Assembly: GCA_022821105.1 (NCBI GenBank)
Contig: JAJEEH010000297.1
Location: 1-34,639 of the forward strand
Reading direction: 5' to 3'
DNA length: 34,639 bases
From: Acidimicrobiia bacterium
Lineage (GTDB): Bacteria; Actinomycetota; Acidimicrobiia; Acidimicrobiales; Bin134
Part shown: one piece after another, positions 688 through 5,896 of the stretch
How the letters are laid out: the number at the start of each line of letters is the position of its first letter
How positions within the stretch are numbered: position 1 is the stretch's first letter
Position numbers and translations under genes: made by a program
Notes under the pieces: generated by a model
What the model was told of the DNA's origin: nothing
The model's database searches: none
Seen by the model: only the letters and a program-made list of their open reading frames with translations

Positions 688-743
688 GGTGTGTGCTGAG
701 TCCTCAGCAGCTCGTTGCTCATCCTGTGTGCTGAGTCCTCAGC
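675..743. repeat. Imperfect tandem duplication, 2 x 34 nt with period 35 (units 675-708 and 710-743), each containing the inverted repeat GCTGAG-tc-CTCAGC
   Basis: gctcgttgctcatGGTgtgtgctgagtcctcagc versus gctcgttgctcatCCTgtgtgctgagtcctcagc; 32 of 34 identical. Confidence 0.95.
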
Positions 744-3700
744 CCTGTTCGAGTAACACCTTCGGTTCTGAGGCTACCACCACTCTTTCGGAAAGCACCT
801 TTGAGCTTCCCCCCGGCTTCATGGACACGCCGTAGAGGCAGTCGGCCGCCTCCATGGTGCGCTTTTGGTGGCTCACGATGAGCAGCTGGGCGTCTGCTCG
901 GAACTCATCGATGAGCTGAAGGAAGCGGTGCAGGTTGACATCGTCGAGAGCCGCCTCCACCTCATCCATCACATAGAACGGCGAAGGACGACTGCGGAAC
1001 ACTGCGAACAAGAAGGCCAGTGCAGTAAGCGAGCGCTCCCCACCCGAGAGCAGGCTCAAACGCCTGATGTTCTTGCCCGATGGGCGGGCTTCGATCTCCA
1101 CCCCGGTATCCAGCAACGCGTCAGGCTGGGTAAGCCGCAACTTGCCCTCGCCTCCGGGAAAGAGAGTCTGGAACAAATCGGCGAAATTGCGGGCCACGTC
1201 GGCATAGGCCGACGAGAACACGCTGACGATCTCCTCATCGATCTTGCGGATCACCTTGCGGAGCTCCCGGCGGCTTTGGCGGATGTCGTCGATCTGGCCC
1301 TGGGTGAACTCAAACCGCTCTGAAAGCGCCTCATATTCCTCCAGCGCGAGCGGATTCACCGGACCCATGATGCGCAGTTCTTGTTCCAGAGCCCTGATCC
1401 GATCAGCGGGAGCGATGCCCTGGTCCATTGGGGGGCACTCGGCGGCCACTGCTTCAGCGGGCTCGCAATCCAGCTCACGGCGACACCGATCTGTGGCTGC
1501 TTCCAGCCTGATCCCCGCCTCGGCCAGCTCGATCTCCGCGCTTTGGTCTCTCTGCCTGCATTGGCCCAGCCGCGCCTCGGCCTGGGCCCTCTGGCTGCGC
1601 AAGCCCTCCAGCCGTTGGGCGGCGATTCGGGCGGCCTCCGATTCCTCGGCCCGTCGATGGCGCAGCTCCTCAAGCTGACGGCCCGCCTCTTGGGTCCGCT
1701 CAGCCACCAAGCCAAACAGCTGGTCGACGATGGCCAGGCGCTGGTCGACGGCCTGCCGACGGGACGCGGCCTCGGCACGGGCTTGGGCCATTTGGCCCAA
1801 CCGCTGCTCAATCTCGTTTCGCTGCGCGGTCAACAGCCGGCGTCGTTCGTCTACCCCGGCCGCCTTCACCTGGTAGTCGGAGCGGAGGCTGCCAACCGCC
1901 TGAGACTTCTGGGACAGCTCATCGCGTTCTCGATACATGCTCTCGGCGCGCGCCCGCTGCTCGACCTCTTTGGCCTGGTGCTGGGGCAACTCCTGGTGAA
2001 GATCGCTCAGCCGGCGGCGATCCTCGTCAATCCTGACATCCAACTCTGAGCGCCGGGGGCCCAGGGCCCCAATCCCCACCTCGGCATCGCGAAGCTCTCG
2101 CTCGACCGAATTCGCCCGAGCGCGAACGGCATCAAATGCATCGAGCTGGACGCGCGCCGCCTCACGGGCCCGGGCCTCTTCCTGCCCGGCTCCCTCCAAC
2201 TGCTGTTCGGCCATAGCCAACTCGCGCTCGGCGGCATCGACCGCCTCCTTTGCCCCTGCTGACGCCTCTTTGGCCTCTTCGAGCAATCCTGTGGTGGCCC
2301 CGGAACGGCGAACGCCCACTCGCCAGCCAGAGGAGGAGAACCGGTCGCCCCGGCGGGTAACCACCACTGCGGCGGGATCGGCGACCGCCGCCGCCGCTGC
2401 CTGGTCGCTGCTCTCCAGCACCCCAACGGCGCCTATCAGCGCGTCCAGCAATTTGTCCACGCCGTCCACTGACGAGCGCACATGGGGACGCAAGGGGTCG
2501 CCGACGGATGGAATTGCCGCCATGGGGGCTGATCCGCCCAAAGCCAAGACGGCACCGCTCACACTGTCGGCCTCAAGGGTGGCGATGGCCCTCATGGCGA
2601 CCTCGGTGTCGGTGGCGATCACCGCGGCAATCGCCTCCCCGGCGGCGGCCTCGAAGGCGGCCTCCCATCCCCGATCTACTTCCACCAGCTCAAGCAGAGT
2701 GCCGAGCACGCCTTCGATGCCAACCAAACGCTGGGCACCGGACTGATCGCGCGCCTCGTCCAATGCGAATGAAAGGGCATCCCGGCGGGCTTCCCACGCC
2801 TGAAGGTCGCCGACCGCCTTACCGAGAGCGGCCTTGTGCTGCTCGCATGCCGATCGAGCCTCCTGAGCAGCACGTTCTGCCAGCTCAAGCTCCTGCACCC
2901 GAGACTGCCGAGCTTTCTCGGCGTCATTGGCCTCGGTCCAACACCGGTCCAGCTCTTCAACCAGCTCCTGTCGGCGTTCTTCCAAAGCCTCCAAGTTCCG
3001 GCCCAGACGATCTGATTCGGCTTGGTCCCGTTGGATGGACGCCTCCAGAACTCTTATCTCGCCTTTGATTCGGGGCGCATCCGACACCGAGTCCGAAACG
3101 CCCTGGTCACCCCATCGCTCGTCGAATGCCAGACGAAGCTGCTCCAACTCTTCTTCGGCACCGGACACGGCAGCCGCCGCGGGCTCCAGAGCTGCCGCCG
3201 AATCCTCTACCTCGAGCAGTTCGATTGCCAGACGGTTGGACTCGGACTCAAGCGTGGCCACTACATCCTCGTCCATTCCGGCGTTGCGATCGCGCTGCAA
3301 GCGGAGTCGGCGCTCCGATAACAGGGCCTCCAGTCCACGCAGGCGCTCGGTGATCCCCTCGAACCGCATGAGTGCGTCGCTGATGTCCTGTCCGTCGGCG
3401 GCCGACAGTTGGGCCTCGGCTGCGGCCACGTCACGATCCAACGCCTCCGCCTGCACGGTGAGCTGTTGCATCTCGCGGCGGTCCGCGGCCTGGTCTTGAG
3501 TCAGCTGGCGAACCCGTCGCCGCAGCTGATCGATCTCCTGACCAGCGAGATAGCGGCGAAGACCGCTTAACTCCGCCAGCAAGTCGCCGTGGCGACGAGC
3601 GGCCTCAGCTTGCCGCTCCAGCGGCCGCAGCTGGCGACGGATCTCCCTAACCACGTCGGACAACCGGGTGAGGTTGGCCTCGGAGGCGGCCAGCCTCCGC

Positions 3701-4233
3701 TCCGACTTCTCCTTCCGGCGGCGATATTTCAATACGCCGGCAGCCTCTTCGATAACCGCCCGTCGGTCCTCGGGCCGAGCACTCAAGACCCCCTCGATCT
3801 GGCGCTGGGAGACGATCACATGCTGCTGGCGGCCTACACCGGAGTCGCTCAGCAGCTCTTGGATGTCAAGCAGGCGGCAAGGCACTCCGTTGATGGCGTA
3901 TGTGCTGTCTCCGCTGCGAAACAGCGTGCGGGTAATGGTGACCTCTTCGAATTCGATGGGCAGGAGTCGTGAGGTGTTGTCGATGCTCAACGACACCTCC
4001 GCTCGACCCAGGCCCGCTCGAGAGGCGGTCCCGGCGAAGATGACGTCGTCCATCTTGGCCGAGCGCACCGATGTCGGGGCTTGTGCGCCGAGAGCCCAGG
4101 CCACCGCGTCGACCACATTGGACTTGCCGCTGCCGTTCGGACCCACGATCACCGTCACACCCGGTTCGAATACCAGCGTGGTGGAATCGGCGAAGGATTT
4201 GAACCCCTTGAGTGTCAACGCCTTCAAGAACAC
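739..4233 (-). CDS. smc: Chromosome segregation protein SMC
   Basis: Walker A GPNGSGKSNVVDAVAWALG, long coiled coils, central hinge, LSGGERSLTALAFLFA signature, Walker B FYVMDEVEAALDD; 1164 aa; GTG start. Confidence 0.97.
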   Translation of the reverse strand: MFLKALTLKGFKSFADSTTLVFEPGVTVIVGPNGSGKSNVVDAVAWALGAQAPTSVRSAKMDDVIFAGTASRAGLGRAEVSLSIDNTSRLLPIEFEEVTITRTLFRSGDSTYAINGVPCRLLDIQELLSDSGVGRQQHVIVSQRQIEGVLSARPEDRRAVIEEAAGVLKYRRRKEKSERRLAASEANLTRLSDVVREIRRQLRPLERQAEAARRHGDLLAELSGLRRYLAGQEIDQLRRRVRQLTQDQAADRREMQQLTVQAEALDRDVAAAEAQLSAADGQDISDALMRFEGITERLRGLEALLSERRLRLQRDRNAGMDEDVVATLESESNRLAIELLEVEDSAAALEPAAAAVSGAEEELEQLRLAFDERWGDQGVSDSVSDAPRIKGEIRVLEASIQRDQAESDRLGRNLEALEERRQELVEELDRCWTEANDAEKARQSRVQELELAERAAQEARSACEQHKAALGKAVGDLQAWEARRDALSFALDEARDQSGAQRLVGIEGVLGTLLELVEVDRGWEAAFEAAAGEAIAAVIATDTEVAMRAIATLEADSVSGAVLALGGSAPMAAIPSVGDPLRPHVRSSVDGVDKLLDALIGAVGVLESSDQAAAAAVADPAAVVVTRRGDRFSSSGWRVGVRRSGATTGLLEEAKEASAGAKEAVDAAERELAMAEQQLEGAGQEEARAREAARVQLDAFDAVRARANSVERELRDAEVGIGALGPRRSELDVRIDEDRRRLSDLHQELPQHQAKEVEQRARAESMYRERDELSQKSQAVGSLRSDYQVKAAGVDERRRLLTAQRNEIEQRLGQMAQARAEAASRRQAVDQRLAIVDQLFGLVAERTQEAGRQLEELRHRRAEESEAARIAAQRLEGLRSQRAQAEARLGQCRQRDQSAEIELAEAGIRLEAATDRCRRELDCEPAEAVAAECPPMDQGIAPADRIRALEQELRIMGPVNPLALEEYEALSERFEFTQGQIDDIRQSRRELRKVIRKIDEEIVSVFSSAYADVARNFADLFQTLFPGGEGKLRLTQPDALLDTGVEIEARPSGKNIRRLSLLSGGERSLTALAFLFAVFRSRPSPFYVMDEVEAALDDVNLHRFLQLIDEFRADAQLLIVSHQKRTMEAADCLYGVSMKPGGSSKVLSERVVVASEPKVLLEQG

Positions 4234-4299: not shown

Positions 4300-5145
4300 T
4301 CAGATCTGGCACTGCTCGCAGTAATACGTCCAACGACGGCGGAAGCGGTATTTCTGGATGGGACGGTGGCAGCGGGGACAAGGCCGTCCCTTCTGGCCTG
4401 CCTGCTTGAACACGTTTAGGTATTCGTCATAGCCGCCCGGCTGGCCGTGCACATCCAAATAGTGGCCATCCTCCAGCGTGGCCCCCCGGTGCTTGGCCGC
4501 ATCGTGGAGGGTCTCCACCATCGCCCGGTGCAGACGCCTCACCTCCTGGGGTCCCAAGGAGTTGGGCAGGCGGTCGAATCGCAAGCCCGCCGCGAACAGA
4601 ATCTCGTCGGAGTACACCTCGCCCAAACCGACCACAACGCGATCATCAGTCAGAACGGCCTTCAACTTGGCGTCCTGGGCCAGGAGGATCTGGCCGAACA
4701 TGCGCCAGGGCACCGGCTGATCGAGGGGGTCGATGCCCAGCCCGTCCAGTTCGGGGACTTCCTCAACCAGCTTTTCGGAGTTGGCCAAGAAGAGCTCGGC
4801 ATCGCCTGGCTCATCCACCAGCCGGAGCTGTCCGCTCTTGGTGAACGTGATCGACAGGGCGGTATTGGCTTCGACATCGTCTCGGTTGGCGTGACGCCGC
4901 AGCTGGCCGCCGGTGCCCAAATGAGCCACAACCACATCTTCACTGTCCAGGCTCATGATCAGAAACAACCCCCGACGCCGCACACCGGTGATCTTCATCT
5001 TCTCCAGCCGGTTGACGAACTTCTTGGGGCCTCCGGACCGCTTGGCATACCCCGACTCCATGACCTCCACCGACTTGATGCGAAGACCAGACAGCTCCCT
5101 GTCCAGATCGCGACGGATGGTCTCGATTTCCGGCAATGCGATCAT
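4300..5145 (-). CDS. Fpg/Nei-fold protein at the mutM locus, probably catalytically inactive or altered
   Basis: MIALPEIETIRRDLDRELSG..., HLGTGGQLRR, H2TH-like VVGLGEVYSDEILFAAGL, C-terminal zinc finger CPRCHRPIQKYRFRRRWTYYCEQC. ATG at 5145 preferred over the 44-aa longer GTG ORF, whose extension overlaps rnc. Confidence 0.9.
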   Translation of the reverse strand: MIALPEIETIRRDLDRELSGLRIKSVEVMESGYAKRSGGPKKFVNRLEKMKITGVRRRGLFLIMSLDSEDVVVAHLGTGGQLRRHANRDDVEANTALSITFTKSGQLRLVDEPGDAELFLANSEKLVEEVPELDGLGIDPLDQPVPWRMFGQILLAQDAKLKAVLTDDRVVVGLGEVYSDEILFAAGLRFDRLPNSLGPQEVRRLHRAMVETLHDAAKHRGATLEDGHYLDVHGQPGGYDEYLNVFKQAGQKGRPCPRCHRPIQKYRFRRRWTYYCEQCQI

Positions 5146-5173
5146 CGGATCACTCCTACTCGTACTGATGAGA

Positions 5174-5896
5174 TCACGAGGCGGCTCCGGTGGGAGCGGC
5201 AATCGCCTCCGAGTCCAAGGTCTGCCAGGTTGAGGCCGCCGCGGCCTGCTCGGCCTGCTTCTTGGACCGTCCCTCACCTCGACCCCGCTCCGCGCCGTTC
5301 ATGTACACAACGGCGAGGAACTGCTTGGCGTGATCGGGACCCTTCTCCGACAAGCGATACTCCGGGGCATCGAATCCGCTGCGGGCGCAGTACTCCTGCA
5401 ATCTGGTTTTGAAATCTCGGATACCGGGACCCTCAGCCGCCCCGGAGATGCGATCGGCCAGCCATCCCCGGACCAGGTCGATCAGGACTTCCCAGGGAGC
5501 ATCCAGGTAGACCGCCCCGATCACGGCCTCCATGGCATCGGAAAGAATCGACTGCTTCTCGCGCCCTCCAGACGCCTCTTCGCCCCGCCCGAGGCGAAGG
5601 GCCTTGCCCAGTTGCAGCTCAACGGCCAAATCGGCCAGCGTTTCAGCTCGAACCACCTCTGCACGCAAGGGAGCCAATTGGCCCTCGGTCATCTGGGGGT
5701 AGGCGGTGTAGATGTGATCGGTCACCACCAGGGCCAACACGGCGTCGCCCAAGAACTCCAATCGCTCATTGGAGGTAGCCCCGGCGTGGTCGGCGCACCA
5801 CGATCGATGGGTCATCGCCTCGACCAGCAAGCTGGGCTGGGTGAAGCGATAGCCGAGACGTTCGGCTAGAGCGGCGAGGTCGGGGTCAGAAGTCAG
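5174..5896 (-). CDS. rnc: Ribonuclease III
   Basis: THRSW, NERLEFLGDAVL, DAMEAVIGAVYLD and C-terminal dsRBD. The frame continues upstream of the listed 5830 TTG start (LTSDPDLAALAERLGYRFTQPS, typical RNase III N-terminus) to a CTG at 5896 overlapping the acpP stop. Confidence 0.9.
   Translation of the reverse strand: MTSDPDLAALAERLGYRFTQPSLLVEAMTHRSWCADHAGATSNERLEFLGDAVLALVVTDHIYTAYPQMTEGQLAPLRAEVVRAETLADLAVELQLGKALRLGRGEEASGGREKQSILSDAMEAVIGAVYLDAPWEVLIDLVRGWLADRISGAAEGPGIRDFKTRLQEYCARSGFDAPEYRLSEKGPDHAKQFLAVVYMNGAERGRGEGRSKKQAEQAAAASTWQTLDSEAIAAPTGAAS

Follow-up and report, generated by a model that had tools for sequence, protein, structure and literature searches.

Degenerate MutM at the rnc-smc locus of Acidimicrobiales, a candidate pseudoenzyme of the Fpg/Nei superfamily

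Kinases and proteases include many pseudoenzymes. In the literature searched, we found no published MutM pseudoenzyme and no publication on Fpg in Acidimicrobiia. The published case that comes nearest is Rv0944, the truncated Fpg2 of Mycobacterium tuberculosis, an actinobacterial Fpg paralogue reported to be without the N-terminal catalytic part (PMC2734929). M. smegmatis has a complete orthologue of this truncated protein. The protein described here, in contrast, is full length, point-substituted and found order-wide.

Other members of the family show which residues matter. In mycobacterial Nei2, the substitutions P2A and K51A each abolish AP-lyase activity, glycosylase activity is lost in E3A and in K51A mutants, and the in vivo role of Nei2 does not need AP-lyase activity (PMC11323726). 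Lys51 of Nei2 is the equivalent of Lys60 in Bacillus stearothermophilus (Bst) MutM. The same paper (PMC11323726) refers to a scaffold role reported for NEIL3; both NEIL3 and Nei2 are nevertheless enzymes with an active site, which the protein described here has lost. The zinc-less Fpg/Nei proteins (plant/fungal Fpg and NEIL1) have lost the zinc cysteines, keep the fold and are active glycosylases (PMC3188539). They are like most other families with the defect described below in the loss of cysteines, but differ from them by their intact catalytic residues; the genus studied here keeps the finger.

The gene between rnc and smc

The window is the whole stretch of DNA that was analysed, 34,639 nucleotides. 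Among named genomes, the closest are MAGs of Acidimicrobiia, including the sponge-associated 'Candidatus Poriferisocius'. The gene in question (4300..5145, negative strand) encodes a protein of 281 aa plus stop, with a translation beginning MIALPEIETIRRDLD and an Fpg N-domain followed by an H2TH domain; we refer to it as degenerate MutM. Its upstream neighbour is rnc (5174..5830, negative strand), assigned to RNase III by the signature NERLEFLGDAVL and by locus context, and its downstream neighbour is smc (739..4233, negative strand), the condensin ATPase gene, confirmed likewise by locus context. All three genes lie on one strand in the window, in the order that the first-pass annotation had called the normal position of mutM.

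An AGGAG ribosome-binding site (5153..5157, negative strand) is located 7 nt ahead of the ATG, and in two relatives, G015 and G017, the open frame starts just 3 codons before the Met. On these two observations we consider the N-terminus to be real. They also rule out an upstream start restoring MPELPE, in agreement with the earlier statement that no such in-frame start exists.

The protein matches Pfam PF01149 (Fapy_DNA_glyco) and PF06831 (H2TH), both over cut-off, and does not reach either of the NCBIfam Fpg equivalog cut-offs (199 against 212 and 181.7 against 203.3 bits). A profile search against the PDB gave only Fpg/Nei relatives, apart from weak matches to the H2TH region of TopoVI-B and to consensus TPR proteins. 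The nearest solved relatives are MutM/Fpg, such as Bst MutM (1R2Y) and E. coli Fpg (1K82), which it resembles in fold (TM 0.90 to 1R2Y) and in the H2TH region. It differs from them in lacking the catalytic Pro/Glu, Lys60, the intercalation triad and Asn174, as well as in its equivalog scores.

Residue numbers follow Bst MutM unless codon numbers are given; Lys56 of E. coli is Lys60 of Bst. On alignment to Bst MutM, every replacement claimed by the first-pass annotation (in E. coli numbering Pro1/Glu2, Lys56, Met73, Arg108/Phe110 and Asn168) is present. The catalytic Pro-Glu at codons 2-3 is replaced by Ile-Ala (P2 to I, E3 to A; 5137..5142, negative strand), and Lys60 by Leu at codon 60 (4966..4968, negative strand). 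The void-filling Met77 is replaced by Thr at codon 78 (4912..4914, negative strand). DEPGDAELF, at codons 111-119 (4789..4815, negative strand), stands in for the DPR(T/R)FG segment carrying Arg112 and Phe114, with DEPGDA aligned to DPRxFG. The Met77-Arg112-Phe114 triad, which probes the lesion and fills the void, is here Thr, Pro and Asp. The DNA-contact residue Asn174 of the GxGN motif is Glu at codon 176 (4618..4620, negative strand). Kept are E6, K160 (K162 in the window protein), Y176, E179, R264 (R271) and the four cysteines of the zinc finger, C256, C259, C276 and C279, which together with R271 are encoded at 4309..4380 (negative strand).

The same substitutions are shared by all 22 sampled genomes of the window's genus, which carry the protein at 73-99% identity. 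Ala3, Leu60 and Glu176 are invariant in the 20 aligned genus sequences, and Ile2 nearly so. The net charge in the genus is +1 to +10. Sequencing or assembly error is ruled out by these 22 members and by the 90 genomes of the order that share the degenerate state. Among the contrary findings that the first-pass annotation had named, such as MPELPE in close orthologues or an assembly oddity, none was encountered where it could be examined.

Within the genus, the median of the pairwise dN/dS values is 0.097 both for degenerate mutM (one sequence being dropped owing to a split match) and for rnc, 0.095 for smc, and 0.189 for a second Fpg gene described below, Fpg2. The value of about 0.10, equal to that of both neighbours, bears out the description of the protein as constrained and rules out a pseudogene or simple decay. 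Nine pairs from other degenerate families could be measured: eight have a dN/dS of 0.07-0.14 and the ninth one of 0.32; for active relatives it is 0.04-0.17. No internal stops or frameshifts were reported among the listed orthologues.

An AlphaFold2 model of the protein has pLDDT 92.3 and pTM 0.89, and Foldseek aligns it to MutM 1R2Y with a TM of 0.90. With genus sequences only as input pLDDT was 55; with viral Fpg relatives added it was 92. Scanning viral sequences with a degenerate-MutM profile gave no match. The earlier claim of an intact scaffold and H2TH region agrees with this model, by which the protein belongs to the Fpg/Nei structural superfamily (N-domain and H2TH fold).

Distribution and origin across the order

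About 200 genomes of the order were searched, and the protein between rnc and smc was taken from a total of 157 genomes. Scored on K60, M77, R112, F114 and N174, it is bimodal in these 157 genomes. The active class keeps 4-5 of the five residues (67 genomes, 37 families, 61 genera) and the degenerate class 0-2 (90 genomes, 22 families, 46 genera), with none of the five kept in 80 of the 90. No family mixes the two classes, among the 37 active and 22 degenerate families. The two classes have the same neighbouring genes, apart from loci at which the retrieved sequence ends early.

All 58 of 58 active relatives have the key residues and the degenerate ones hardly ever do, a pattern far from chance. 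Retention in the degenerate clade is 15% for P2, 75% for E3, 4% for K60, 0% for M77, 3% for R112, 0% for F114, 7% for N174 and 32% for R264. These eight residues were named in advance, and the zero values for M77 and F114 hold with the intermediate sequence (G026, see below) set aside. For comparison, 16 of 61 other positions that are invariant in active relatives fall below half (Fisher p = 0.0014); H74, S78, T113, G115, S220 and Y225 are among these 16 and lie in or beside the active-site and lesion-binding motifs.

The replacements vary by family, N174 having become mostly Pro, Asp or Glu and K60 Leu, Thr, Arg or Met. Positions gained in the degenerate clade are R16, R83, P144, H214, D215, T222, L243, P262 and Y274. 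Mean net charge falls from +6.8 in active to -0.8 in degenerate proteins (p about 5e-15), a shift that is milder in the window's genus. The fold residues E6, E8, R57, Y176, E179, R190 and G233 are at or near 100% in the degenerate clade.

We computed a maximum-likelihood tree after removing the key columns. The degenerate proteins form one clade nested inside active locus MutM, with support of 84/90 when the intermediate from G026 (locus L027) is included and 100/93 without it. The active relatives share the gene neighbourhood, and the degenerate protein descends directly from them. G026 is the first branch and keeps P2, E3, K60 and R112, with M77 to T, F114 to S, N174 to A and R264 to G. Family f58 is the second branch; it keeps E3, with P2 to A and K60 to T, and R112 and N174 are kept in two of its three sequenced members. 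The residue loss had a single origin. Several independent losses of active residues are not needed to explain one clade.

The zinc finger has a more complicated distribution. The earlier claim that the finger and its Arg are intact holds for the window's genus and fails for most sister families with the same defect: a complete finger is found in just 24 of the 69 degenerate sequences on the tree. The window's genus has the full four-Cys finger, and its nearest sister families are zinc-less with a form SPRSRxP...CEQS. Three explanations would fit this pattern: independent losses in several lineages, a wrong position of the genus on the tree, or a regain. A topology in which the finger was lost once and the window's genus lies outside that loss is not rejected (AU p = 0.137).

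Fpg2 and other paralogues

The genome of the window (G000) encodes four Fpg/Nei proteins. One of these, Fpg2 (P0002), has all canonical residues and passes both Fpg equivalog cut-offs. It is encoded on contig C214, unlinked to the rnc-smc locus, and is the canonical mutM that the first-pass annotation had proposed to look for in the same genome. P2, E3, K60, M77, R112, F114, N174, R264 and the four cysteines are present in each of the 41 Fpg2 sequences checked. At the position of Bst K160, Fpg2 has Pro in 17 of 41, Ala in 2 of 41 and Ser in 1 of 41 sequences, as noted for the window's genus (L085, L220-L237). In G005 only, there is an in-frame TAG within the Fpg2 match (C91, 17703-18488).

Fpg2 is present in 67 of 74 degenerate-locus genomes versus 0 of 67 active-locus genomes. 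Since each trait arose essentially once, this association counts as one historical event and not as 67. Fpg2 groups with Fpg from other actinobacterial lineages and did not arise by recent duplication of the gene between rnc and smc. The seven degenerate-locus genomes without Fpg2 are G026 and three f58 genomes, representing the two earliest branches, and sporadically G038, G074 and G192. Fpg2 acquisition may, judging from these two branches, have followed the first losses; as for the order of events, either the residue loss or Fpg2 may have come first.

G038, G074, G026 and the f58 genomes carry other Fpg/Nei paralogues. In G192 (98% complete; locus L127/L199), degenerate MutM is the sole match to the Fpg N-domain family, and this genome may be without an active Fpg. 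The two remaining Fpg/Nei proteins of the window's genome, encoded on contigs C113 (P0003) and C61 (P0004), are divergent. In the C113 type, HLMVAG and TEASKRKKA replace HLGMxG and DPRxFG, and Pro2, Glu3, Lys60 and Asn174 are kept. No MutY above cut-off was found in the window's genome, which is 90% complete; there is a weak match of 78 versus 286.5 bits.

Possible roles of degenerate MutM

Degenerate MutM bears the usual marks of a pseudoenzyme: the fold is kept, the catalytic motif is lost, the gene is under purifying selection and it has been retained for long (90 genomes, 22 families). Its sequence strongly suggests that the window protein is enzymatically inactive, because it lacks the equivalents of P2, E3 and K51 of Nei2. 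The reading of the first-pass annotation, a constrained non-glycosylase at the normal mutM position and shared by orthologues, gains support from the order survey, the dN/dS values and Fpg2, with the non-glycosylase part predicted from the residues.

We propose the following history. The mutM of the rnc-mutM-smc cluster would have been stripped, in one ancestor of a large share of Acidimicrobiales, of the residues that serve glycosylase/lyase chemistry, probe lesions and contact the backbone. The degenerate gene would have stayed at its locus and been inherited vertically, and canonical Fpg function would now be carried by the unlinked, fully equipped Fpg2. The protein would still be selected as a folded protein and may work via its two domains, which are preserved as a scaffold; it could, for instance, be a partner or a regulator in chromosome maintenance or repair, the context in which its neighbours stand. 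On balance we think it probable that this is a single-origin MutM pseudoenzyme, with repair passed to Fpg2, that is kept for a non-catalytic role, probably in protein contacts.

The other non-catalytic role to be weighed is binding of damaged, branched or bent DNA via the H2TH/zinc-finger half, as a sensor or protector, which is close to the DNA-structure or lesion-sensing role suggested in the first-pass annotation. The window's genus would suit such a role, with its four-Cys finger, R271, K162 and positive net charge, and a non-catalytic scaffold role at damage is reported for NEIL3 (discussed by PMC11323726). Across the clade, however, Asn174 is mostly Pro, Asp or Glu, and K60, M77, R112 and F114 are gone. 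In most sister families R264 and the zinc cysteines are missing as well, and the net charge averages about zero, although a DNA-binding protein would be expected to keep at least its phosphate contacts throughout. The loss of intercalating and phosphate-contact residues, often of the zinc finger, and the charge shift leave this role less supported, and we regard it as unlikely. Because DNA contacts and positive charge are lost clade-wide, a role in protein contacts is likelier than lesion binding, and we speculate that degenerate MutM acts through protein-protein contacts.

Two readings would keep an enzyme at the locus. New chemistry in the old groove, also raised in the first-pass annotation, would fit the strong purifying selection and the invariance of Ala3, Leu60 and Glu176 in the genus, but the same positions differ between families and the clade has gained no conserved polar set in the groove; lacking positive support, we consider it improbable. 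That the protein is still an active Fpg/Nei, with a different N-terminal amine in use like Val2 in NEIL3, is about equally improbable. Methionine aminopeptidase is expected to leave Met in place before Ile, so that Ile2 should leave the Met of the window protein uncleaved. A NEIL3-like mechanism calls for a small residue 2, allowing Met removal, and an adjacent Glu, and the window protein has Ile2 and Ala3 and is also without Lys60. NEIL3 does show that Pro2 is replaceable (PMC11323726), and degenerate sequences on the tree keep Glu3 in 52 of 69 and Pro2 in 11 of 69 cases, but none of them, with the intermediate set aside, has Pro2, Glu3 and Lys60 together.

Finally, the gene might be a neutrally decaying leftover, kept since its deletion would harm translation or transcription of smc. 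Its place between rnc and smc in the same direction and the redundant, intact Fpg2 are compatible with this. A dN/dS as low as that of the neighbours, the clean reading frames of the listed orthologues and the retention of E6, R57, Y176, E179 and R190 in essentially 100% make it hardly credible.

A more far-reaching form of the pseudoenzyme reading is that a glycosylase was converted once, after a second Fpg took over repair, into a non-enzymatic subunit or regulator that chromosome maintenance cannot, or can hardly, do without, such as a partner of SMC or RNase III. We find this unlikely. The synteny with smc and rnc does not show a functional link, since the position was inherited from active MutM.

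The fold and ancestry of degenerate MutM are known, but there appears to be no earlier description of its state, of single origin, selected, non-catalytic and with a second Fpg in its stead. Annotation pipelines that label the gene between rnc and smc as Fpg in these bacteria would be in error. The history of the gene is resolved, with one origin, a living intermediate lineage, active cousins at the same locus and Fpg2 confined to degenerate lineages, and the case makes the fate of a repair-enzyme fold after loss of enzyme function directly testable.
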